A stretch of DNA of 50,519 bases from positions 1 to 50,519 of the forward strand of contig JAFZUS010000140.1 in NCBI GenBank assembly GCA_017618275.1, read 5' to 3'. Numbering within the stretch: position 1 is the first letter of the stretch; every line of letters starts with the position of its first letter. Source of the DNA: Prevotella sp. (GTDB lineage: Bacteria; Bacteroidota; Bacteroidia; Bacteroidales; Bacteroidaceae). Below the pieces are notes generated by a model, which was not told where the DNA came from, did not search any database, and saw only the letters and a list, made by a program, of their open reading frames with translations. The position numbers and the translations under genes are program-made. Positions 1 through 11,676 of this stretch are shown here, in pieces.

Positions 1-1230
1 GATACTGTATGGATGCTATTGGCAGCCATGTTGGTTTTCTGGATGCAGCCGGGCTTTGCGCTGTGTGAAGCAGGTTTTACGCGTAGTAAGAACACGGCCA
101 ACATCCTGATGAAGAACTTTGTCGACTTTATGTTCGGCTCGTTGCTGTTCTTCTTCCTCGGTTTCGGATTCATGTTCGGTAGCGAGGGTCTGGGTTTCAT
201 TGGCGCACCCAACTGGGGCGACCTGAGTTTCTATAAGGGCGACTTGCCCGTAGAGGGTTTTCTGATCTTTGAGACGGTGTTCTGCGCCACGAGTGCCACG
301 ATTGTCTCTGGTGCCATGGCCGAGCGTACGAAGTTCTCGATGTATATGGTCTATAGTGCTGTGATCTCGCTGTTCATCTATCCCATCGAAGGTCACTGGA
401 CTTGGGGTGGCGGCTGGCTCTGCAACGATGCGGCTGACAGTTTTATGATGTCAACGTTTGGCGATGTGTTCCACGACTTTGCAGGTTCTGCCATCGTGCA
501 TAGCGTGGGTGGTGTACTGGCCCTGATTGGTGCATTGGCACTGGGTCCCCGTATCGGTAAATACTCTAAGGACGGTAAGAGCCGCGCTATTCCTGGTCAC
601 AACCTGACGATGGCTGCACTGGGTGTGTTTATCCTCTGGCTCGGTTGGTTTGGCTTCAACCCGGGTTCGCAGTTGGCTGCCAGCGGTGAGGTAAACCGTA
701 TCGCCATCTCGCACGTATTCCTGACCACCAACCTCGCAGCGGCTGCCGGTGGTGTGGCCACGATGTTCCTCACTTATGTCAAATACGGCAAACCCTCGCT
801 CTCTCTGACGCTCAACGGTGTGTTGGCAGGTCTCGTGGGTATTACGGCAGGCTGTGACCTTGTATCGCCGGTAGGTGCTGTGATAATCGGCCTTGTGTGT
901 GGTATCGTATTGGTTTACGCCATCGAGTTTATCGACCACGTTCTGCATATCGATGACCCTGTGGGTGCTTCGTCTGTACACGGTGTCTGTGGTATTCTCG
1001 GCACTCTGATGACAGGTCTGCTGTCTACCAGCAACGGTGCCTTCTACGGTCACGGTTGGGGATTCTTCGGCGCTGAGTGCTTCGGTATCCTCGTTATCGA
1101 CCTCTGGGCTGCAGTCTGCGGTTTCGCCCTGTTCTATGGCATCAAGAAGGTGCACGGTCTGCGTGTAGGCAAGCGTGTGGAGGAAGAAGGGCTAGACATC
1201 TACGAGCATGGAGAGGCATGCTATAACTAA
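1..1230 (+). CDS. amt: Ammonium transporter (Amt family), 5' end outside the window
   Basis: Inner-membrane channel for ammonium/ammonia uptake. The frame is open from base 1, so the start lies upstream and about 409 codons are seen. The Amt N-terminal signature FWMQPGFALCEAGF is followed by about ten hydrophobic segments. Both pore histidines are present, in AIVHSVGG and in ASSVHGVCG. It differs from the second transporter at 2287 in its His-loop sequences, so the two are paralogues rather than a recent duplication. A P-II (glnK) partner would be expected close by but is not in the window. A porin-like gene follows after 70 bases with no terminator between, suggesting co-transcription. Family assignment is secure; substrate specificity is by homology. 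Confidence 0.95.
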   Translation, partial: DTVWMLLAAMLVFWMQPGFALCEAGFTRSKNTANILMKNFVDFMFGSLLFFFLGFGFMFGSEGLGFIGAPNWGDLSFYKGDLPVEGFLIFETVFCATSATIVSGAMAERTKFSMYMVYSAVISLFIYPIEGHWTWGGGWLCNDAADSFMMSTFGDVFHDFAGSAIVHSVGGVLALIGALALGPRIGKYSKDGKSRAIPGHNLTMAALGVFILWLGWFGFNPGSQLAASGEVNRIAISHVFLTTNLAAAAGGVATMFLTYVKYGKPSLSLTLNGVLAGLVGITAGCDLVSPVGAVIIGLVCGIVLVYAIEFIDHVLHIDDPVGASSVHGVCGILGTLMTGLLSTSNGAFYGHGWGFFGAECFGILVIDLWAAVCGFALFYGIKKVHGLRVGKRVEEEGLDIYEHGEACYN

Positions 1231-1298
1231 GTAGTTAAGTAGTTAAGTAGTTAAAGTAGTTAAGTAGATAAAGAAATTAAGAAGTTAAAGAAGTTAAG
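1231..1298. repeat. Degenerate tandem AGTAGTTA-type repeat between genes
   Basis: The whole spacer between the transporter and the porin consists of about eight imperfect copies of a 7-9 base unit (AGTAGTTA, then AAGAAGTTA). It has no hairpin and no recognisable promoter. Similar low-complexity spacers with other unit sequences occur at 3661, 20203, 32618 and 33168. Confidence 0.8.
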
Positions 1299-1300
1299 TT

Positions 1301-2011
1301 ATGAAAAAGATTGTTTTATTTGCAATGGGTTTGGTCATGGGAATGACGACCTTTGCACAGGATGAGATTGAGACAACGGTTAGTGGAGATATCGTGAGTA
1401 GTTATATCTGGCGTGGACAGGATCTGGGAAGCGCTGCCGTTCAGCCGACACTCGGCATCGGGTACAAAGGACTCTCGCTGTCGGCCTGGGGCAGTTATGG
1501 ACTGGTAAATCCTGCCGATACGAAGGAGTTTGACCTGACCCTGGCCTATGCTATCGGAGGTCTGAACATCGGTATTACAGACTATTGGTTCAGCGCTGGT
1601 CAAGACCCTGAGAACCGCTATTTCAAGTACGACGCCCATGGCACGAACCACGTGTTTGAGGCAAATATCGGCTATGACTTTGGACTGGCCAGTTTGCAGT
1701 GGTATACGAATATTGCAGGCAACGACGGAACAAACAAGGACGGCAAGCGGGCCTACAGCAGTTATGTTGAGGCGAATGTCCCATTCAAACTTGCCACAGT
1801 CGACTGGACTGCTACGGTCGGTGCCGTCCCCTTTGCCACGAGTGCATATAATGGCTGGACTTCGGGCTTTGCTGTTACCAATGTTTCATTGAAAGCGACG
1901 AAGGATATCAAGGTGACTGACTCATTCTCGATACCCATCTTCGGACAGATTGTCGGCAACCCTTGTTCGCAAATGGCTTACCTGGTACTTGGATTCACGT
2001 TACAGCCATAG
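1301..2011 (+). CDS. Small outer-membrane beta-barrel protein (TorF-like putative porin)
   Basis: A 236-residue protein with a clear signal peptide (MKKIVLFAMGLVMGMTTFA, cleaved before QDE). The mature part is short alternating strands rich in aromatic and Gly residues, ending in a hydrophobic strand (LGFTLQP), as in small outer-membrane barrels. The early motif SYIWRGQDLG resembles the TorF/Gcw_chp putative porin family often found beside nitrogen-assimilation genes. It lies between two ammonium transporters and ends in a strong terminator, so it is probably co-transcribed with the first. A role in letting small nitrogen compounds across the outer membrane is inferred from context only. Confidence 0.75.
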   Translation: MKKIVLFAMGLVMGMTTFAQDEIETTVSGDIVSSYIWRGQDLGSAAVQPTLGIGYKGLSLSAWGSYGLVNPADTKEFDLTLAYAIGGLNIGITDYWFSAGQDPENRYFKYDAHGTNHVFEANIGYDFGLASLQWYTNIAGNDGTNKDGKRAYSSYVEANVPFKLATVDWTATVGAVPFATSAYNGWTSGFAVTNVSLKATKDIKVTDSFSIPIFGQIVGNPCSQMAYLVLGFTLQP

Positions 2012-2025
2012 ATTCATAATGAAGT

Positions 2026-2066
2026 GCCCTCTCTTTCTGCCCTTGGGTAGGAGAGAGGGCTTTTTT
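2026..2066 (+). terminator. Rho-independent terminator after the porin gene
   Basis: A perfect 8-bp stem (GCCCTCTC at 2026-2033 with GAGAGGGC at 2053-2060) is followed by six T. It separates the first transporter/porin unit from the second transporter and its operon. Confidence 0.9.
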
Positions 2067-2118
2067 GTATTGTTGCTTTTGACGATTTGTAACGGAATGA
2101 TATGTTTTATGTGCAAAA

Positions 2119-2236
2119 TGTTAGCAAAATGAAAGTTGTTTTATGCTAAAACATTGCAAAGTGTCAGTTTGCTAATTTTTTAACAATCAAAAAGAAAGAA
2201 TAATGGCGAAATGTTATTAATATGCAGTACCTTTGC
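2119..2236 (+). promoter_or_regulatory. Promoter region of the amt-pyrG-purF-carAB-asnB operon
   Basis: The -7 box TACCTTTG lies at 2228-2235, with no good TTTG at -33, which suggests an activator is needed. Upstream, TTAGCAAA (2121-2128), its inverse TTTGCTAA (2168-2175) and a TGCTAA inside the palindrome GTTTTATGCTAAAAC (2138-2152) form a possible operator cluster. This is the only promoter-like sequence before asnB. The -7 box is a good match; the operator reading is inference. Confidence 0.6.
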
Positions 2237-2286
2237 AAAAAATTTGGTGAACGCAAAGCAAACAACACAAAAAAACAGATATATTT

Positions 2287-3687
2287 ATGAAGGTAAAAAG
2301 ACGTTGGATAATCCTGATGACGGCAATGACACTGATAGCCGTCTCAGGGCTGGCGGTAGGAGAGCCTACCTTTGATTGTGACTGGTCGGTGATCTCAGCG
2401 GCCGACGTGGCGTGGCTCATTACAGCCACGATTTTCGTTTTGATGATGACACCCGGTCTGTCATTCTTCTACGGCGGTATGGTAGGCGCGAAGAACGTGA
2501 TCTCGACGATGTTGCAGTCGTTCATCGCCATGGGACTGATATCCGTGCTTTGGGTGGTGATCGGTTTCTCACTTTGCTTTGGCGATGATATCGGCGGTGT
2601 GATTGGTAATCCGCTGACATTCCTGATGTTTCAGAATGTGGGTGCTGAGGTTTATACGACACCCGCAGGCAATATATTAGGTGGAGCCACCATTCCGTTG
2701 GCACTGTTTGCGCTGTTCCAAATGAAGTTCGCCATCATTACGCCGTCGCTGATTACGGGTTCGTTTGCAGAGCGTGTCAGGTTCTCGGCGTATATGTTCT
2801 TCATGATGTTCTTTTTCTTCGTCATCTACTGTCCACTGGCACATATGACCTGGCATCCGGAGGGCTTATTCCTACGCTGGGGAGTAGTCGACTTCGCGGG
2901 TGGTATCGTAGTACACGCCTCATCGGGTATTGCGGCATTGGCAGGTGCTATCTTCTTGGGACGGCGCAAGGCAGAAACACGTAAGAGCGAACCTGCTAAT
3001 ATTCCCTTTGTATTGTTGGGTGCAGCCATGTTGTGGTTAGGATGGTTCGGCTTTAATGCCGGTTCGTCGCTTCATGCCGACGGACAGGCCATCAAGGCAT
3101 TCCTGAATACAAATACGGCATCCGCCACGGCGATGATGACCTGGATATTCTTCGATTGCCTGCGTGGTCGTAAGCCCTCTGCCATGGGTGCTGCCGTGGG
3201 TTGTGTGGTTGGTCTGGTGGCCATCACGCCGTCGGCAGGCTATGTCACTGTCGGTCAGAGCATCTTCATCGCGTTTGTCATCACGCTCATCTGCAACGTC
3301 GCCGTCTATTGGCGTTCACACTCCCAGATCGATGATGCCCTTGACGTGTTCCCCACGCATGGTACTGGCGGTATCTTTGGTACCGTGCTGACGGGTATCT
3401 TCATCCAGGAAGGTCTCATCGCAGGCACGTGGGATGGTTTTGTGATTTTCCTCTATCATCTTCTGGCCATTGTCATCGTGTTTGTCTACACCTTCGCAAT
3501 GAGTTGGCTGGGATATAAACTCATTGACCGACTCATTCCTATGCGCGTATCAGCCTATAGCGAGAAAGTGGGTCTCGACTTCTCGCAGCATGATGAGCAC
3601 TACGGACTGGCGCACATCGGAGAACGAGAACTTGCGGAGTACGAGGAACACATTAGGGAGAAAGAAAGTGAGAAAGTGAGAAGGTGA
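2287..3687 (+). CDS. amt: Ammonium transporter (Amt family), operon leader
   Basis: A 466-residue Amt protein. An N-terminal cleavable-looking leader precedes SAADVAWLITATIFVLMM and the signature TPGLSFFYGGMVGAKN, typical of bacterial Amt. Pore histidines are in GGIVVHASSG and FPTHGTGGIFG. The charged C-terminal tail (from LIPMRVSAYSEKVGLD on) carries the conserved RV..EKVGLD region that contacts neighbouring subunits and P-II proteins, so P-II control is likely. It is the first gene of a tight run with pyrG 54 bases downstream and no terminator between, placing ammonium import with four glutamine-using enzymes. Confidence 0.96.
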   Translation: MKVKRRWIILMTAMTLIAVSGLAVGEPTFDCDWSVISAADVAWLITATIFVLMMTPGLSFFYGGMVGAKNVISTMLQSFIAMGLISVLWVVIGFSLCFGDDIGGVIGNPLTFLMFQNVGAEVYTTPAGNILGGATIPLALFALFQMKFAIITPSLITGSFAERVRFSAYMFFMMFFFFVIYCPLAHMTWHPEGLFLRWGVVDFAGGIVVHASSGIAALAGAIFLGRRKAETRKSEPANIPFVLLGAAMLWLGWFGFNAGSSLHADGQAIKAFLNTNTASATAMMTWIFFDCLRGRKPSAMGAAVGCVVGLVAITPSAGYVTVGQSIFIAFVITLICNVAVYWRSHSQIDDALDVFPTHGTGGIFGTVLTGIFIQEGLIAGTWDGFVIFLYHLLAIVIVFVYTFAMSWLGYKLIDRLIPMRVSAYSEKVGLDFSQHDEHYGLAHIGERELAEYEEHIREKESEKVRR

Positions 3688-3720
3688 GAAGGTGAGAAAA
3701 TCGTGATTAAGTGAGAAAGA
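3661..3720. repeat. Degenerate tandem GTGAGAA repeat at the amt-pyrG junction
   Basis: Six or so imperfect GTGAGAA(A/G) units start inside the last codons of amt (encoding the EKESEKVRR tail) and run through the spacer to pyrG. The same unit recurs at 33168-33190 before cobT and, on the other strand, inside cbiB at 32365-32395. Confidence 0.8.
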
Positions 3721-3741
3721 GCAAACTATCAAACAACTGAT

Positions 3742-5391
3742 ATGAATACAAAGTACATTTTCGTTACGGGCGGTGTGGTTTCCTCGTTAGGCAAGGGAAT
3801 CATCTCCGCCAGTATCGGTAAACTATTACAGGCACGCGGTTTCAAGGTCACCATCCAGAAGTTCGATCCCTACATCAACATCGACCCTGGAACGCTGAAT
3901 CCCTACGAACACGGCGAGTGTTATGTGACGGTGGATGGTATGGAGACCGACCTTGACCTGGGGCATTACGAACGGTTTACGGGTATTCACACTACTCGCA
4001 ACAACTCCATTACGACGGGGCGCATCTATAAGACCGTTATCGATCGTGAGCGTCACGGCGACTATCTGGGTAAAACGATTCAGGTGGTGCCACACATCAC
4101 CGACGAGATTAAACGTAGGATGTTGCGGGAAGGACTCGACGAGGGGTTGGATTTCGTCATCACAGAGGTTGGCGGTACGATTGGCGACATCGAGAGTGCG
4201 CCGTTTATGGAAGCCATCCGACAGTTGCGTTGGCAATTAGGTCGCGATGCGGTGTGCGTGCATCTAACGTACGTGCCGTATCTGAAAGCCGCTGACGAGT
4301 TGAAGACGAAACCCACGCAGCACTCTGTAAAAGAATTGCAGGGTATGGGTATCCAGCCCGACATCCTCGTACTCAGAACCGAACGCCACCTCAGCGACTC
4401 TATACGCCTGAAGGTGGCGTCGTTTTGTAATGTCGATCTGGAGTGCGTGGTGCAGAGTGAGGATATGCCCAGCATCTACGAGGTGCCAGTGAGTATGCAG
4501 CGACAGGGTCTTGATGCCGCTATTATGCGTAAGATCGGTATTCCTGTGGGAGAGACGCCAGCGATGCAGTCGTGGCATGATTTCCTTGACAAGCAGCGCA
4601 ATGCCAAGCGTGAGGTACACATCGGACTGGTGGGTAAGTACGACCTGCAGGATGCCTACAAGAGCATCCGCGAGAGTCTGAATCTGGCAGGTATCTATAA
4701 TGATGTGAAGGCCCGCTTGCACTTCGTGAACAGTGAGGGAATCACGAAAGAGAATGTCAGAGAGAAACTCGACGGTCTGCAAGGGGTAGTCATCTGTCCG
4801 GGTTTCGGACAGCGCGGCATTGAAGGCAAGATTATCGCTACCGAATACACCCGCACCCACGATATCCCAACCTTCGGTATCTGTCTGGGTATGCAGATGA
4901 TGGTGATCGAGTTTGCCCGCAACGTGTTGGGCTACAAGGATGCCAACAGTTGCGAAATGAATCCTGATACACCTCACAACGTGATTGACATTATGGAGGA
5001 GCAGAAGAGCATCACCCAGATGGGTGGTACGATGCGACTGGGTGCCTACGAGTGCGAACTGGTGAAAGGTAGCCGCGTTTATGAAGCATACGGCGAAGAG
5101 TCGCTGATTAGTGAAAGACATCGCCATCGCTATGAGTTCAACAATGCCTATAAAGAGGAGTACGAGAAGAAGGGTATGCAATGCGTGGGTATCAATCCTG
5201 CTGCCGATCTCGTAGAAATCGTCGAGATACCTGAGTTGAAATGGTATATCGGTACGCAGTTCCATCCAGAGTACTCGTCGACCGTGCTCCATCCGCATCC
5301 CCTGTTTATGTCGTTTATAAAGGCTGCGATTGTGCGAGTGCAGAGCCAAGCATGCTTGGGCTCTGCCGAGCGTGAGCAGGCTCGAATGTAA
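3742..5391 (+). CDS. pyrG: CTP synthase with a palindrome-encoded C-terminal tail
   Basis: Glutamine-hydrolysing CTP synthase (UTP + ATP + Gln to CTP), cytoplasmic, 549 residues. The synthetase domain starts with the hallmark KYIFVTGGVVSSLGKG and occupies about residues 1-270. The class-I glutaminase domain follows, with nucleophile C381 (FGICLGMQ) and H508/E510 (FHPEY). The enzyme homology ends at about residue 531 (LFMSFIKAA). The last 18 residues, containing GSAEREQAR, are encoded by a palindromic element at 5341-5384 and are not part of the usual family. The stop is 16 bases before the purF-like gene. Start chosen at the first ATG giving the conserved N-terminus. Confidence 0.97.
   Translation: MNTKYIFVTGGVVSSLGKGIISASIGKLLQARGFKVTIQKFDPYINIDPGTLNPYEHGECYVTVDGMETDLDLGHYERFTGIHTTRNNSITTGRIYKTVIDRERHGDYLGKTIQVVPHITDEIKRRMLREGLDEGLDFVITEVGGTIGDIESAPFMEAIRQLRWQLGRDAVCVHLTYVPYLKAADELKTKPTQHSVKELQGMGIQPDILVLRTERHLSDSIRLKVASFCNVDLECVVQSEDMPSIYEVPVSMQRQGLDAAIMRKIGIPVGETPAMQSWHDFLDKQRNAKREVHIGLVGKYDLQDAYKSIRESLNLAGIYNDVKARLHFVNSEGITKENVREKLDGLQGVVICPGFGQRGIEGKIIATEYTRTHDIPTFGICLGMQMMVIEFARNVLGYKDANSCEMNPDTPHNVIDIMEEQKSITQMGGTMRLGAYECELVKGSRVYEAYGEESLISERHRHRYEFNNAYKEEYEKKGMQCVGINPAADLVEIVEIPELKWYIGTQFHPEYSSTVLHPHPLFMSFIKAAIVRVQSQACLGSAEREQARM
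5341..5384. repeat. Palindromic element (family A) inside the pyrG 3' end
   Basis: An inverted repeat CAGAGCCAAG...CTTGGGCTCTG (5341-5365) is followed directly by a second small hairpin CGAGC...GCTCG (5367-5384). The right half CTCTGCCGAGCGTGAGCAGG is identical to the element at 18908-18953, and both are read in the same frame as SAEREQ. Relatives lie at 49811, 28089 and 31603. Confidence 0.85.
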
Positions 5392-5407
5392 TTCAAGACT
5401 TGTATCG

Positions 5408-7147
5408 ATGGAACAACTCAAGCATGAGTGTGGCGTGGCGATGATTCGTCTGCTGAAGCCACTCGACTATTACAAGCAGCGATATGGCACATGGCGCTAC
5501 GGTTTCAACAAACTCTACCTGATGATGGAGAAACAGCACAACCGTGGTCAGGAGGGTGCTGGTATCGCCTCGGTGAGTCTGAAAAAGGAACATGGCACGG
5601 AATATATGTTTCGCGAGAAGGCTGAAGGCAAAGATGCCATCACGGAAATCTTCAGTCGCGTGACGGAGCAGATGGCTGGTGAACTGTTGATGGGGCATCT
5701 GCGCTATTCGACTACAGGCAAGAGCGGACTGCAATATGTTCACCCGTTTTTGAGGCGAAATAACTGGCGTGCCAAGAACCTCTGTCTGTGCGGCAACTTC
5801 AACATGACCAACATCGATGAGGTCTTTCAGTTTCTGACGGAACAAGGTCAGTCACCGCGTATCTATGGCGACTCGTATATCACGCTCGAACTGATGGGTC
5901 ATCGTCTGGACCGTGAGGTGGAACGACTCTATGCCCTCGCCAAAGAACAGGGCCTGAAAGGTACGGACATCACAGACTATATTGACAATCACGTGGAGAT
6001 GGCAAATGTGTTGAAGACCACAATGAGCCATTACGATGGTGGTTACGTGATGTGTGGACTGACAGGCTCTGGCGAGATGTTCAGCGTGCGCGACCCCTGG
6101 GGCATTCGGCCTGCGTTCTATTATCGCGACGATGAGATGATTGCCTTGGCCAGTGAACGGCCTGTACTACAGACGACATTCGATTTGCAGGCAGAAGATA
6201 TCTGTGAACTCAAGCCTGGTGAGGCGTTGATTGTCCATAAAAACGGTGAGAGTCAACTGGAACAGATTATGCCAGCCCAACCCCTGAGTGCCTGCTCGTT
6301 CGAACGAATCTATTTCAGTCGTGGTTCAGACCACGATATCTATCAGGAGCGCAAGCGACTGGGTGAGCAACTCACGCCTGCTATCCTCAAAGCCGTTGAT
6401 GGAGATGTGGATCATACGGTCTTTTCTTATATCCCCAACACCGCTGAAGTGGCCTTCTATGGGATGACCGACGGGTTTAGAAAGTTACACGGGGAAGTAC
6501 GTACAGAAAAGGTGGTGTGGAAGGATATCAAGTTGCGCACCTTTATCGCTGACAACTCCGAGCGCAACGATCTCGCCGCCCACGTCTATGATATCAGTTA
6601 CGGTTCGTTGAAACCATACGAGGATAACCTCGTGATTATCGACGATTCGATTGTGCGAGGCACGACGCTGAAAGAGAGTATCTTCAAGATTCTCGACCGT
6701 CTGCATCCCAAGAAGATTGTGATGGTGTCGAGTTCGCCGCAGATTCGCTATCCCGACTACTACGGCATTGACATGTCGCACCTCGAGGAACTCTGTGCCT
6801 TCCGTGCAGCCATTGCACTTATTAAAGATAGAGGTATGCAGAAGTTGATTGCCGATACTTACAAGGCATGCAAGTATTCGCCTGCATCTTTGAATCACGT
6901 ACGCAACATCTATGCGCCGTTCAGTGTGGAAGAAATCAATGCGAAGATTGTGGAAATGCTTCGTCCTGAAGGTATGCAGGCCCCCATCAAACTGGTATTC
7001 CAGAGTATTGAGGGTCTTCATCATGCCTGTCCCAACCATCCGGGCGACTGGTACTTCACGGGACATTATCCTACGCCAGGCGGCATCCGACTGGTGAACC
7101 AAGCGTTTGTGAATTATGTAGAACAAGTTTTGAAAATGCAGTTGTAA
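5408..7147 (+). CDS. purF: Amidophosphoribosyltransferase-like glutamine amidotransferase
   Basis: A 579-residue class-II glutamine amidotransferase fused to a phosphoribosyltransferase domain. The ATG at 5408 gives MEQLKHECGV, so the nucleophile Cys8 follows a 7-residue propeptide as in B. subtilis-type PurF. EKQHNRGQEGAG and HLRYSTTG are glutaminase motifs. VIIDDSIVRGTT (about residues 409-420) is the PRPP-binding loop. It is longer than ordinary PurF (about 470-505), so it may be a second, specialised copy rather than the purine-pathway enzyme; whether another purF exists cannot be seen here. It overlaps the next gene by one base (TAATG), implying translational coupling in the nitrogen operon. 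Confidence 0.88.
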   Translation: MEQLKHECGVAMIRLLKPLDYYKQRYGTWRYGFNKLYLMMEKQHNRGQEGAGIASVSLKKEHGTEYMFREKAEGKDAITEIFSRVTEQMAGELLMGHLRYSTTGKSGLQYVHPFLRRNNWRAKNLCLCGNFNMTNIDEVFQFLTEQGQSPRIYGDSYITLELMGHRLDREVERLYALAKEQGLKGTDITDYIDNHVEMANVLKTTMSHYDGGYVMCGLTGSGEMFSVRDPWGIRPAFYYRDDEMIALASERPVLQTTFDLQAEDICELKPGEALIVHKNGESQLEQIMPAQPLSACSFERIYFSRGSDHDIYQERKRLGEQLTPAILKAVDGDVDHTVFSYIPNTAEVAFYGMTDGFRKLHGEVRTEKVVWKDIKLRTFIADNSERNDLAAHVYDISYGSLKPYEDNLVIIDDSIVRGTTLKESIFKILDRLHPKKIVMVSSSPQIRYPDYYGIDMSHLEELCAFRAAIALIKDRGMQKLIADTYKACKYSPASLNHVRNIYAPFSVEEINAKIVEMLRPEGMQAPIKLVFQSIEGLHHACPNHPGDWYFTGHYPTPGGIRLVNQAFVNYVEQVLKMQL

Positions 7148-9999
7148 TGAAAATAGCAAAGTTAATACTCGAAGATGGAACAGAGTTCGTCGGCTGGTCG
7201 TTCGGCTATGAGACTGAAACGGCTGGCGAGGTGGTGTTCAACACCGCTATGACGGGCTATCCTGAGAGTCTGACAGACCCCAGTTATGCGGGGCAGATAC
7301 TGGTGACGACATATCCCCTGATAGGCAACTACGGTGTGCCTGATACGGGCATGGGTAGCGACGGTCTCCCCCTGTTTATGGAGAGTGAACGGATTCATCC
7401 GAAGGCACTGGTCGTGGCCGACTATAGTGAGACCTATTCCCATTGGAATGCGAAGGAATCGCTAGCCTCGTGGTTGAAGCGCGAGAAGATTCCGGCCATT
7501 ACTGGCATTGATACAAGAAGACTGACGAAGGTGCTTCGCGAGCATGGTGTGATGATGGGGCGGATTGTCCTAGAAGGCTCCGTATGTCGCTGTGCCACAG
7601 CGACAAGCACAACAGAGGACTATGGCTCCGTCAATTGGGTGGAGCAGGTGAGTTGCAAGGAAGTGATACGCTATAATGAGGGCGCTGACAAAAAGGTGGT
7701 CCTCGTCGATTGCGGCGTGAAGGCGAACATCATCCGCTGTCTGATTAGGCGAGGCGTTGAGGTGATCCGCGTACCTTGGGATTACGACTTCAATCAGTTG
7801 GAATTCGATGGTCTCTTTCTGGCTAACGGTCCTGGTGACCCTGAGCGTTGCGAAAAGACGGTGGCACATATCCGTACGTTCCTGAACAATGAAAAAGTCC
7901 GTCCCTGCATGGGTATCTGTCTGGGTAACCAACTGTTGGCGCGTGCTGCAGGAGCCAAGACCTACAAGTTGAAGTATGGTCACCGCTCGCACAACCAACC
8001 AGTACAGCGGGTGGGGACCACCCAGTGTTTCATCACTTCACAGAATCACGGTTATGCTGTCGACGATTCGACATTGCCTACTGATTGGGAACCGCTGTTT
8101 GTAAATATGAACGATGGCTCCAATGAGGGTATCCGCCACAAGTCGAATCCCTGGATGTCTGCGCAGTTCCACCCGGAAGCCTGCTCAGGACCTACCGACA
8201 CCGAATGGATGTTTGATGAATTTGTAAACTGTCTGAATACAGTACGTACGGGACGTACTGAGAGTTCGCTCCTTACGGACCAAGAGTTCGTACGGGACGG
8301 ACTAAAGACGAGTGGCATATCTAAGGTTCTGTTGTTGGGCTCTGGTGCCTTGAAAATCGGTCAGGCCGGTGAGTTCGACTATAGTGGCGCACAGGCATTG
8401 AAGGCGCTGAAAGAAGAGGGTATCCACTCGGTGCTTATCAACCCGAATATTGCCACGGTACAGACTTCGAAAGATGTTGCCGACACGGTATATTTCCAGC
8501 CAGTTCAGGCTGATTTTGTAGAACGTGTCATAGAAAAGGAACGTCCTGATGGCATTTTGTTGTCGTTTGGTGGTCAGACAGCCTTGAACTGCGGTGTGGA
8601 ACTCTACCAGCGCGGTGTGTTGGAGAAATATGGTGTGAAGGTGCTTGGCACCCCTGTGCAGGCCATCATCGATACGGAGGATCGCGACCTGTTTGTGAAG
8701 CGCCTTGATGAGATTGGCGTGAAGACCATTAAGAGCGAGGCCTGTAGTACCGTTGAGGAAGTGCAGAAGGCAGCCCACGAATTGGGATTCCCCGTGATAC
8801 TAAGAGCCGCTTATGCCCTCGGAGGTCTTGGCTCTGGCTTCTGCGACAACGAGGAAGAGTTGCTTGCGCAGGCCGAGGAGGCTTTCTCGTTCTCGCCACA
8901 GGTATTGGTGGAGAAAAGTCTTAAAGGTTGGAAGGAGATTGAATATGAAGTAGTGCGTGACCGTTACGACAACTGTATCACCGTTTGTAATATGGAGAAT
9001 TTCGACCCTCTCGGTATTCATACGGGTGAGTCGATTGTGGTGGCCCCGTCGCAGACACTCACCAACAGCGAGTATCACAAATTGCGTGCTCTTGCCATCA
9101 AGATTATCCGTCACATCGGTATCGTGGGTGAGTGTAATGTGCAGTATGCTCTCGATCCCAATTCTGAGGACTATCGCGTCATTGAGGTCAACGCCCGTCT
9201 GAGTCGTTCGTCTGCTTTGGCATCTAAGGCAACAGGTTATCCGTTGGCTTTTGTCGCTGCCAAACTGGGACTCGGCTACGGTCTCTTCGACCTGAAGAAC
9301 TCTGTGACAAAGACCACCAGCGCTTTCTTCGAGCCAGCCCTTGACTATGTGGTGGTAAAGATTCCCCGTTGGGATCTGACGAAGTTCCAAGGTGTAAAGC
9401 GTCAACTCGGTTCGTCGATGAAGAGCGTGGGTGAGGTGATGGCCATTGGCCGTACCTTTGAGGAGTCGCTACAGAAAGGATTACGTATGATAGGACAAGG
9501 TATGCACGGTTTTGTGGAGAACCACCAAATCAAGATACCAGACATCGAGAAATCTTTGCATGAACCTACTGATATGCGCATCTTCGTGGTGTCGAAGGCT
9601 CTTAAAATAGGCTATACCATCGAACAGATTCATCAGTTGACGATGATTGACCGTTGGTTCCTGTACAAACTGAAGCATATCGTGGGTATCGACCAACAAC
9701 TCAAAGAGTATACCCATCTTTCCGAGATTTCTGAGTTCATGGAGCCGAGCGAGTTCAAGGAGTATTTGCAGTCGCCAGAGGTGGCTCTGCTACTGCGTGC
9801 CGCCAAAGTCTATGGCTTCTCCGATTTCCAGATGGCCCGTGCTGTCGGTCTGGAAAACCGTATGAAGATGGAACAGGCTGGTCTTACCATCCGTAAATGG
9901 CGCAAGATATTGGGACTCGTGCCCACCGTCAACCAGATTGACACCCTCGCAGCGGAATATCCCGCCCAAACCAATTACCTATATTTGTCGTACCTTTAA
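7147..9999 (+). CDS. CarA fused to the N-terminal half of CarB (carbamoyl-phosphate synthase-like)
   Basis: A 950-residue fusion. Residues 1 to about 365 are a complete CarA: the small-subunit domain (TAMTGYPESLTDPSYAGQ) plus a class-I glutaminase with C258 (GICLGNQ) and an AQFHPEA motif. After a short linker, residues about 389-950 match the first half of CarB: LLLGSGALKIGQAGEFDYSG, an ATP-grasp domain, and the oligomerisation domain with YGFSDFQMARAVG. It stops at TNYLYLSYL, the junction where the second (carbamate-phosphorylating) ATP-grasp domain should begin. That domain and the allosteric MGS-like domain are absent. asnB begins 12 bases after the stop. Separated CarB halves have been reported to work as homodimers, so activity is possible but untested; the native reaction is unknown. 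Confidence 0.88.
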   Translation: MKIAKLILEDGTEFVGWSFGYETETAGEVVFNTAMTGYPESLTDPSYAGQILVTTYPLIGNYGVPDTGMGSDGLPLFMESERIHPKALVVADYSETYSHWNAKESLASWLKREKIPAITGIDTRRLTKVLREHGVMMGRIVLEGSVCRCATATSTTEDYGSVNWVEQVSCKEVIRYNEGADKKVVLVDCGVKANIIRCLIRRGVEVIRVPWDYDFNQLEFDGLFLANGPGDPERCEKTVAHIRTFLNNEKVRPCMGICLGNQLLARAAGAKTYKLKYGHRSHNQPVQRVGTTQCFITSQNHGYAVDDSTLPTDWEPLFVNMNDGSNEGIRHKSNPWMSAQFHPEACSGPTDTEWMFDEFVNCLNTVRTGRTESSLLTDQEFVRDGLKTSGISKVLLLGSGALKIGQAGEFDYSGAQALKALKEEGIHSVLINPNIATVQTSKDVADTVYFQPVQADFVERVIEKERPDGILLSFGGQTALNCGVELYQRGVLEKYGVKVLGTPVQAIIDTEDRDLFVKRLDEIGVKTIKSEACSTVEEVQKAAHELGFPVILRAAYALGGLGSGFCDNEEELLAQAEEAFSFSPQVLVEKSLKGWKEIEYEVVRDRYDNCITVCNMENFDPLGIHTGESIVVAPSQTLTNSEYHKLRALAIKIIRHIGIVGECNVQYALDPNSEDYRVIEVNARLSRSSALASKATGYPLAFVAAKLGLGYGLFDLKNSVTKTTSAFFEPALDYVVVKIPRWDLTKFQGVKRQLGSSMKSVGEVMAIGRTFEESLQKGLRMIGQGMHGFVENHQIKIPDIEKSLHEPTDMRIFVVSKALKIGYTIEQIHQLTMIDRWFLYKLKHIVGIDQQLKEYTHLSEISEFMEPSEFKEYLQSPEVALLLRAAKVYGFSDFQMARAVGLENRMKMEQAGLTIRKWRKILGLVPTVNQIDTLAAEYPAQTNYLYLSYL

Positions 10000-10011
10000 A
10001 AGATTAAGAAT

Positions 10012-11676
10012 ATGTGTGGAATCGTAGCGATACTAAACGTACAGGAACAGACGCATGAGTTGCGTGAAAAGGCATTGAAGATGAGTCAGAAGATCCGTCA
10101 CCGCGGACCTGACTGGAGTGGAATATACTGTGGTGGTTCAGCCATCCTCGCCCATGAGCGACTGAGCATTGTTGACCCCGAGAGCGGCGGACAGCCGTTA
10201 TACTCGCCCGACCATAAACAGGTGTTGGCCGTCAATGGCGAGATATACAACCATCAGGAGATCCGTCGCCGCTTTGCAGGACAATACGATTTTCAGACGG
10301 GCTCTGACTGCGAGGTGATTCTGGCGCTCTATCGTGAGAAGGGTATCAATTTTCTCGAAGACCTAAGCGGCATCTTTGCCTTCGTGCTTTACGACGAGGA
10401 ACGCAATGAGTTCCTGATTGCCCGTGATCCCATCGGTGTGATACCTCTTTATATCGGCTACGATAGCGATGGCACGGTCTATGTGGCCTCAGAGTTGAAA
10501 GCCCTTGAAGGACAATGTGAGCGTTACGAGCCATTCCTGCCTGGACATTATTATTGGAGTGTCGACCCGGGAGTGAAGTGGTACTATCGTCGTGATTGGA
10601 TGCATTACGATGCCGTGAAGGATAATCCTGCCAGCGTTGAGGCCATCCATGATGCTCTGGAGGATGCCGTGAAGCGGCAGTTGATGTCAGACGTGCCTTA
10701 CGGTGTGCTGCTAAGCGGCGGTTTGGATTCCAGTGTTATCTCCGCCATTGCCGAGAAATATTCAGAGATGCGTATCGAGGACGATTCCAAGACAAAGGCC
10801 TATTGGCCCCGTCTGCATTCCTTCGCCGTAGGCTTGAAAGGTGCTCCCGACTTGGCAAAGGCCAAACTCGTGGCTGACCATATAGGTACTGTGCATCACG
10901 AGATCAACTATACCATTCAGGAAGGTTTGGATGCTATACGCGATGTCATCTATTTCATCGAAACCTACGATGTGACCACTGTCCGTGCTTCTACGCCGAT
11001 GTATCTGCTGGCTCGTGTCATCAAGTCGATGGGTATCAAGATGGTGCTCTCTGGCGAGGGTGCGGACGAGATATTTGGTGGCTACCTCTATTTCCATAAG
11101 GCACCAACAGCAAAGGATTTCCACGAGGAGACCGTTCGCAAGTTGGGTAAACTTTATATGTACGACTGTCTACGAGCGAATAAAAGTCTGAGTGCCTGGG
11201 GCGTAGAGGGCCGTGTACCCTTCCTCGATAAGGAATTCTTGGATGTCGCCATGCGTACAAACCCAAAGGCTAAGATGTGTCCAGGCTCGACTATGGAGAA
11301 AAAGATTGTTCGTGAGGCTTTTGCCGATATGTTGCCTGCTGAAGTCGCCTGGCGGCAGAAGGAGCAATTCAGCGATGGTGTGGGTTATTCTTGGATCGAC
11401 ACCCTCAAGCAAATCACGTCTGAAGCCGTCTCTGACGAACAGATGGCCCATGCTGCCGAGCGTTTCCCCATCAACCCGCCGAAGAACAAGGAGGAGTACT
11501 ACTACCGCAGCATCTTCGCCGAGCATTTCCCCAGCGATAGTGCTGCCAAGAGTGTTCCCAGCGAGGCCAGCGTGGCCTGTTCTACCGCCATCGCCCTCGA
11601 ATGGGATGCCGCCTTCAAAGGCATGAATGACCCATCTGGTCGTGCCGTCAAAGGCGTCCATGAACAAGCCTATTGA
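10012..11676 (+). CDS. asnB: Asparagine synthase B (glutamine-hydrolysing)
   Basis: Makes asparagine from aspartate, ATP and glutamine; 554 residues, the usual AsnB length. The start is fixed by MCGIVAI, because the mature enzyme needs Cys2 as glutaminase nucleophile. Other class-II glutaminase motifs are RHRGPDWSG and VNGEIYNH. The synthetase domain carries the PP-loop SGGLDSS (about residues 235-241) and the conserved LSGEGADEIFGGYLYFHKAP. It is the last gene of the operon, 12 bases after the truncated CarA/CarB fusion. No strong hairpin terminator was recognised after it. Confidence 0.97.
   Translation: MCGIVAILNVQEQTHELREKALKMSQKIRHRGPDWSGIYCGGSAILAHERLSIVDPESGGQPLYSPDHKQVLAVNGEIYNHQEIRRRFAGQYDFQTGSDCEVILALYREKGINFLEDLSGIFAFVLYDEERNEFLIARDPIGVIPLYIGYDSDGTVYVASELKALEGQCERYEPFLPGHYYWSVDPGVKWYYRRDWMHYDAVKDNPASVEAIHDALEDAVKRQLMSDVPYGVLLSGGLDSSVISAIAEKYSEMRIEDDSKTKAYWPRLHSFAVGLKGAPDLAKAKLVADHIGTVHHEINYTIQEGLDAIRDVIYFIETYDVTTVRASTPMYLLARVIKSMGIKMVLSGEGADEIFGGYLYFHKAPTAKDFHEETVRKLGKLYMYDCLRANKSLSAWGVEGRVPFLDKEFLDVAMRTNPKAKMCPGSTMEKKIVREAFADMLPAEVAWRQKEQFSDGVGYSWIDTLKQITSEAVSDEQMAHAAERFPINPPKNKEEYYYRSIFAEHFPSDSAAKSVPSEASVACSTAIALEWDAAFKGMNDPSGRAVKGVHEQAY

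Follow-up and report, generated by a model that had tools for sequence, protein, structure and literature searches.

Can a complete CarA make carbamoyl phosphate with only one half of CarB? The question is raised by an open reading frame at 7147..9999 on the forward strand of contig JAFZUS010000140.1 from Prevotella sp. (assembly GCA_017618275.1), whose 50,519 nucleotides make up the window analysed here. The equivalence of the two CarB halves, and the notion of a carbamoyl phosphate synthetase (CPS) formed by a dimer of one half, have rested partly on engineered pieces, and also on the split enzyme of Aquifex and on a methanogen protein that is itself doubted. Guy and Evans reportedly obtained activity, as dimers, from half-CPS constructs consisting of GLN and one synthetase half; those constructs were laboratory-built, whereas the half-length CarB described below is a natural, conserved lineage.

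A complete CarA joined to the N-terminal half of CarB

The frame encodes 950 amino acids, from an ATG start to the C terminus ...QTNYLYLSYL. A sequence-only reading had described it as a whole CarA followed by the N-terminal half of CarB (CarBN) and ending at NYLYLSYL, and this description is confirmed by the reading frame and by Pfam and NCBIfam profiles (Table 1). Pfam places CPSase_sm_chain at residues 6-140, GATase at 185-361, CPSase_L_D1 at 392-507, CPSase_L_D2 at 512-713 and CPSase_L_D3 (oligomerisation) at 803-898, all five domains being complete or nearly so. The NCBIfam CarA profile is matched over 1-359 of its 361 positions, and the CarB profile TIGR01369 only over positions 3-542 of 1052 (855.6 bits, below its cut-off of 1027). 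The CarA domain carries the Cys motif GICLGN and the His/Glu motif QFHPEA, both of which are present in every one of the 30 fused half-type proteins whose 5' end is complete. Read-through into a hidden second half is ruled out by the start of asnB 12 bases past the stop codon; the annotated half-type loci likewise showed no CarB C-half.

Table 1. Features of the nitrogen operon and of the fused gene within it
Feature	Position	Strand	Evidence or remark
amt, ammonium transporter	13..1230	+	TIGR00836, above cut-off
236-aa ORF beside amt	1301..2011	+	Adjoins amt also in L251, L252, L254, L265 and L266
amt, second ammonium transporter	2287..3687	+	TIGR00836, above cut-off
pyrG-like gene	3742..5391	+	Same neighbour in many half-type loci
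purF-like glutamine amidotransferase	5408..7147	+	TIGR01134, below its cut-off; start taken at an ATG within the listed ORF 5330-7147
CarA domain (small-subunit domain and class-I glutamine amidotransferase)	7147..8223	+	Pfam, NCBIfam; about residues 1-359
Linker between CarA and CarBN	8224..8325	+	34 aa, unconserved between species; close relatives G031 and G090 (L057, L058) unfused
CarBN (pre-ATP-grasp, ATP-grasp and oligomerisation domains)	8326..9996	+	Pfam CPSase_L_D1, D2 and D3
Oligomerisation-domain insertion, EFMEPSEFKEYLQSPEV region	9730..9783	+	About 17 residues, limits approximate; half-type CarBs only
Stop codon at the domain border	9997..9999	+	Right after NYLYLSYL
asnB, glutamine-dependent asparagine synthase	10012..11676	+	NF006949, above cut-off

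The gene lies in the order amt - 236-aa ORF - amt - pyrG - purF-like - carA::carBN - asnB. This operon holds two ammonium transporters and four glutamine amidotransferase genes, if we count pyrG, which we take from its translation to encode CTP synthase. The 236-aa ORF, without an NCBIfam match at 1e-15, is possibly an outer-membrane protein, judging from its sequence. Across half-type loci amt, pyrG, purF-like, carA-carBN and asnB tend to stay together, in an order that varies by species and genus (window 13-11676; L063, L065, L295-L314), the carA-carBN pair lying 3' of asnB rather than before it in L041, L063, L065, L295, L297 and L300, and likewise in L302, L303, L305, L309 and L311. Three irregularities were observed in these clusters. 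AsnB, usually 554 residues long, has 635 in L046 (4115-6022) and 652 in L050 (4020-5978), an extra stretch of about 80 residues following residue 109; CarA of G042 is divided between two ORFs (L096:5732-6818), as is the purF-like gene of G775 (L295), each being either a true break or an assembly error.

Half-type CarB is widespread

The sequence-only reading had suggested that the stop at a domain border marks a stable architecture, and its distribution agrees: within the genus the half type was found in at least 94 genomes out of 398, and outside it in 33 rows from five other genera, which, together with its presence in a collection of named genomes, rules out a unique recent deletion. In the genus, at least 98 half-type rows were present among the matches listed, of which 43 were unfused (frames of 560-620 aa), 52 were fused to CarA (900-1160 aa) and three were cut by contig ends; this is a lower bound, since half types with a broken alignment, such as that of G049, scored lower and fell outside the list. 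A survey of 399 genomes of the family gave 36 half-type rows, three of them in the genus and 33 in the five other genera, so that confinement to the genus is ruled out; 20 of the 33 were fetched, all 20 being half-type, and the remaining 13 were judged by frame length and score. Full-length CarB was also listed in at least two of these five genera. Among the 80 best loci of the named collection, 15 were half-type; the titles of five refer to sheep, goat or yak stomach compartments and two are run-number bins, and eight loci carry RUG names, which we take to denote a rumen genome series. Several carriers of half-type CarB among Prevotella-like bacteria thus come from ruminant stomachs. A literature search, confined to open papers, returned no described half CarB in Prevotella or Bacteroidetes, and nothing relevant on Prevotella nitrogen genes.

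The missing half was sought in the 94 half-type genomes. A C-half match with a CarB1-like score was present only in G111 (7% contamination), eight genomes (completeness 54-91%) had no C-half match, and in the other 85 the matches lay below CarB1 scores, six of these being fragments that score alone cannot type.

A common end point, a common insertion and conserved ligands

The search for homologues with the same end point, suggested by the sequence-only reading, was productive: all 46 half-type rows (window included) stop 3-7 residues past NYLY, and the 20 rows obtained from other genera, of which three repeat sequences already in the set, terminate there too. An end point common to 46 and 20 rows excludes chance truncation.

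Residues were compared between 58 distinct half sequences (five identical rows having been dropped) and 93 full-length CarBs. The ATP-grasp ligands R129, R169, E215, H243, Q285, E299, N301 and R303 (E. coli (Ec) numbering), on whose integrity the earlier proposal hung, are kept in 58 of 58 half sequences, and A23, E25, R306 and E383 of the tunnel region are equally invariant. At Ec E208 the half forms have Lys or Arg, and 81 of 93 full forms have Lys. More broadly, of the 260 columns with at least 97% conservation in full CarBs, 237 show the same residue in at least 97% of half forms and only 10 do so in fewer than 80%, even though the entire C-terminal half is missing. Two column shifts are almost fixed in half forms (Ec 155 from A to V, Ec 67 from L to Q). 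At Ec Q22, which presumably lies near the interface, Gln is found in 55 of 58 half forms, the other three having the Glu that is present in 90 of 93 full forms; this change is not taken as proof.

An insertion in the oligomerisation domain, about 17 residues long, is also common to all 58 half sequences and missing from the 89 full-length CarBs measured. The spacing between flanking anchors is 50-63 residues in 56 half rows read by pattern and 50 in two read by eye, against 32 in E. coli CarB and 32-41 in the 89 full-length rows (of 93) that the measurement covered, nine of which are at 37-41 rather than 32-34.

Purifying selection on the half form is strong. The window gene compared with three half relatives with pS under 0.62 gave dN/dS of 0.024-0.048, where synonymous sites approach saturation (dS about 1.2); for pairs with dS from 0.05 to 1.2, the median was 0.099 over 55 half pairs vs 0.142 over 42 full pairs. 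By sequence, half-type CarB is a single, strongly selected lineage with intact glutaminase motifs and ATP-grasp ligands.

One origin of the half form and repeated fusion to CarA

A tree built from 98 CarB N-halves groups all 43 half forms in a single clade (SH-aLRT 100, stem 0.38) that lies among the Bacteroidales CarBs. Adding the other genera still requires a single change between half and full; the distant CarB2 outgroup (see below) roots this larger tree inside the half forms, and the direction of change therefore rests on the 98-sequence tree.

Fusion to CarA, which the sequence-only reading had made a key feature and had called rare in bacteria, lost both distinctions. A minimum of 11 changes of state is needed among the 43 half forms and of nine among the 58, fused and unfused forms interleave, and the linkers, of 12-90 residues, are unconserved; fusion is thus ruled out as the defining trait and is, as far as these sequences tell, incidental, having been made or broken at least 9-11 times. 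Full-length CarA-CarB fusions occur in 10 of 80 named loci, and so are not rare in this group (other Bacteroidales: L117, L127, L137, L143, L144, L148, L149, L150, L151 and L173). As a separate observation, the linkers of L044, L046, L047, L048, L050, L054 and L105 share a pattern of the type SLTP..S..GEGS...TPL...GGVGGEA, as though gene fusion had brought an intergenic repeat element into the reading frame.

A second, full-length CarB accompanies the half form

The window's own assembly (3.6 Mb, 92% complete, 4.9% contamination) holds a separate full-length CarB of 1104 aa, here called CarB2 (G000:C157), which has no carA beside it and is 63% identical to CarBN over the N-half. Of the separate complete carA and carB that the sequence-only reading had thought worth seeking, the genome therefore supplied the CarB; at E 1e-40 the assembly gave no separate CarA, the fusion being the sole CarA match. 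When this 92%-complete assembly was searched for the C-half of CarB1, as known from a relative, no CarB1-type C-half was found; the matches were the C-half of CarB2, both N-halves (as cross-hits) and two weak ATP-grasp sequences on contigs C118 and C139, the former of which, by eye, presumably resembles PurT. Neither a second CarB half apart from that within CarB2 nor a split CPS of the Aquifex type, with both halves as separate genes, was found in this genome.

Among high-quality genomes of the genus (at least 95% complete, at most 5% contaminated), CarB2 was found in 19 of 19 half-type vs 28 of 86 full-type genomes (Fisher p 2e-8, a value that ignores relatedness), where two C-half matches in a full type were read as CarB1 plus CarB2 (with identity checked for part of them), G379 was counted as full-type from its C-half alone, and the count was made apart from half-type genomes of other genera, from G247 and G251 (probably half type with CarB2, though not among the rows listed), from G061, G366 and G367 (CarB2 only) and from G120 (neither). 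Six genomes have CarB2 without a CarA match, namely G061 (L217), G366, G367, G232, G345 and G383, the first three being 99% complete; for G294, G177 and G143 such a status was not borne out, CarA being present. Since CarB2 is present without a CarA match, it probably runs on free ammonia. The CarB2 of CarA-less genomes is a candidate bacterial ammonia-dependent carbamoyl phosphate synthetase. The literature search returned nothing relevant on CarB without CarA. If an antisense ORF within carB2 is set aside, none of the genes that neighbour carB2 in the window genome recurs in more than six of 41 CarB2 loci.

The constant company of CarB2 leaves room for other explanations of the half form, which may not be sufficient alone. 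One is that CarA-CarBN serves CarB2 as a partner, for instance handing glutamine-derived ammonia or carbamate to it or co-assembling with it through the oligomerisation domain. The 19 of 19 association agrees with this, as do the location of the half-specific insertion in that very domain and the single CarA of the half-type genomes tested (all but two bins, each 6% contaminated). Nevertheless, we regard a partnership as unlikely: CarB2 occurs without CarA in the six genomes above and so seems to need no partner, the CarB2 of half-type genomes is not a group apart from that of full types, and we know of no channel between separate CPS chains.

An alternative that takes its cue from the operon, with its two ammonium transporters and three other glutamine enzymes, holds that synthesis was given up and that the protein became a bicarbonate/ATP-sensing glutaminase or a nitrogen regulator, while CarB2 could cover the supply of carbamoyl phosphate. 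The eight ligand positions kept in 58 of 58 sequences and the strong selection fit catalysis better than sensing, which makes such a role decidedly improbable.

The half form where the native carA-carB is missing

Neither of two other trees follows the half trait. A UvrD-type helicase, used as a species marker, was searched in 30 genomes and matched in 28; the tree has 25 rows, that of the window genome included, leaves out the fragments of G013, G018, G070 and G072, and contains some long rows, above all G098. On it the half and full states need at least five changes, and a clade with support of 100/99 unites the window genome, G031 and G090 (half) with G088 and G020 (full). Shuffled labels attain the value of the half label in 27 of 500 cases, so that this label is only weakly clustered on the tree. 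In the CarB2 tree of 41 genomes the two types are likewise mixed, with at least eight changes. Tracking of the species tree by the half trait is thereby ruled out.

The layout of the genomes is reciprocal. In G088 and G020 the nitrogen operon reads amt - ORF - pyrG - purF-like - asnB, without carA or carBN (L265, L266), and a full carA-carB sits between glmS and a response-regulator gene (L248, L249). In the window genome, glmS and the response-regulator gene lie 147 bases apart with no carA-carB between them (L285), and the same two neighbours without carA-carB are found in G090, G013, G031, G018, G055, G007 and G324. Of the 12 half-type genomes in which the glmS stretch could be read, eight thus have an empty native carAB site; in the other four (G346, G044, G081 and G063) neither that response-regulator gene nor carA or carB adjoins glmS, and G083 gave no glmS match. 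Not one of the 12 has carA or carB beside glmS.

From sequence, this pattern looks like transfer of a carA-carBN cassette together with loss of the native genes, and the half form seems to have replaced the full-length enzyme on more than one occasion. The pattern may instead stem from an ancestor that held both old copies, which were then lost differentially; of the 94 half-type genomes, G111 (7% contamination) is the only one to show both at CarB1-like score. The same layout bears on the idea that the half form is a decaying, truncated remnant, tolerated since CarB2 makes carbamoyl phosphate. The presence of CarB2 and the long stem of the half clade (0.38) would accord with decay, yet 237 of 260 conserved columns are kept, dN/dS is low, the insertion and the end point are common to sequences from six genera, and the half form is present where the native genes are missing; we consider decay scarcely credible.

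How a half-length enzyme might work

We put the chance that the gene encodes a minimal glutamine-dependent CPS, made of CarA and one CarB half and acting as a homodimer of halves, at about even. The two halves of the full-length enzyme form a pseudo-homodimer, from which we infer that CarBN could pair with itself. Two CarBN halves would meet through the face that normally binds the C-terminal half, and the insertion in the oligomerisation domain may help or strengthen the pair; the conservation of the 237 columns in half forms is indirect evidence for such a dimer. CarA would supply ammonia, one active site would make carbamate via carboxyphosphate, and the CarBN site of the partner would phosphorylate carbamate to carbamoyl phosphate, the inputs being glutamine, bicarbonate and two ATP. 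The covalent link between CarA and CarBN would be an optional extra, and the full-length CarB2, probably driven by ammonia, would make carbamoyl phosphate in parallel. Several points pull the other way: the half enzyme is the sole CPS in none of the 19 high-quality half-type genomes, which would fit a role short of a full CPS, and the long stem branch of the half clade (0.38) would also fit a changed function. The loss of the allosteric domain, the disputed methanogen precedent and the column shifts at Ec 155 and Ec 67 count against it as well.

A somewhat less than even chance is given to a wider reading of the sequences, according to which a lineage of Bacteroidaceae has undone the ancient internal duplication of CarB, and a carA-carBN cassette encoding a secondarily single-domain, homodimeric, glutamine-dependent CPS passes from species to species and replaces the two-domain enzyme, with an ammonia-driven CarB2, independent of CarA, at work beside it.

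Another destination for the retained half would be a new carboxyphosphate chemistry, in which bicarbonate is activated and carbamate or a carboxyl group is passed to some other acceptor, compare PurK and biotin carboxylase. The half that was retained is the bicarbonate-activating one, the next PDB relatives by sequence are biotin-dependent carboxylases, and the carbamate-phosphorylating half was not found nearby, occurring in the own genome only in CarB2. Yet half forms keep almost every residue that is conserved in full CPS, CarA adjoins or joins CarBN in those half-type loci that reach that far, and the window operon, when scanned, held no obvious acceptor gene beyond the glutamine enzymes; we judge this chemistry quite unlikely.

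Relation to known enzymes and implications

The protein resembles E. coli-type CarA/CarB in its complete CarA with Cys and His/Glu motifs, in the equivalents of CarB 3-547 with the bicarbonate-phosphorylating ATP-grasp half and the ligands tested, and in the 44% identity of CarBN to E. coli CarB 1-550. It differs in the absence of the carbamate-phosphorylating second half and of the C-terminal allosteric (MGS-like) domain, in about 17 extra residues of the oligomerisation domain, and in the joining of CarA to CarBN, seen in 52 of the 98 half-type rows listed. With the allosteric domain lost, regulation must differ. The two missing domains set the protein apart from ordinary CarAB; what would be left of its membership is that CarA-CarBN may work like a CPS.

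The closest PDB sequence is human CPS1, in which a CarA moiety likewise precedes a CarB moiety; CPS1 has both halves and the allosteric domain, whereas the window protein lacks the second half and keeps the Cys motif, the glutaminase Cys of CPS1 being replaced by Ser according to PMC4655335. The same paper describes the phosphorylation domains of CPS1 as a pseudohomodimer with near two-fold symmetry. In Aquifex, CPS.A is a polypeptide of its own and both halves are kept as separate genes, whereas here a CPS.B-type half of this lineage was not found in the genome; in isolation, CPS.A as well as CPS.B can carry out both of the ATP-dependent partial reactions (PMC6022934). That paper also presents the 41-kDa 'smallest CPS' of Methanobrevibacter smithii, a protein with a single ATP-grasp unit that reportedly forms carbamoyl phosphate as a dimer. 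According to PMC11915815, trees never place this protein with CarB, and its role as a CPS is disputed; the present proteins, by contrast, derive from CarB itself.

Given the dispute over the single-domain CPS of the methanogen, a natural half enzyme derived from CarB would offer a real test. A half CarB that occurs where the full enzyme is missing and has a conserved structural change of its own would let expression and assay settle whether the halves are equivalent and whether a dimer of one of them is a CPS. These bacteria may be carrying out naturally the half-enzyme experiment for which biochemists once had to make their own constructs.
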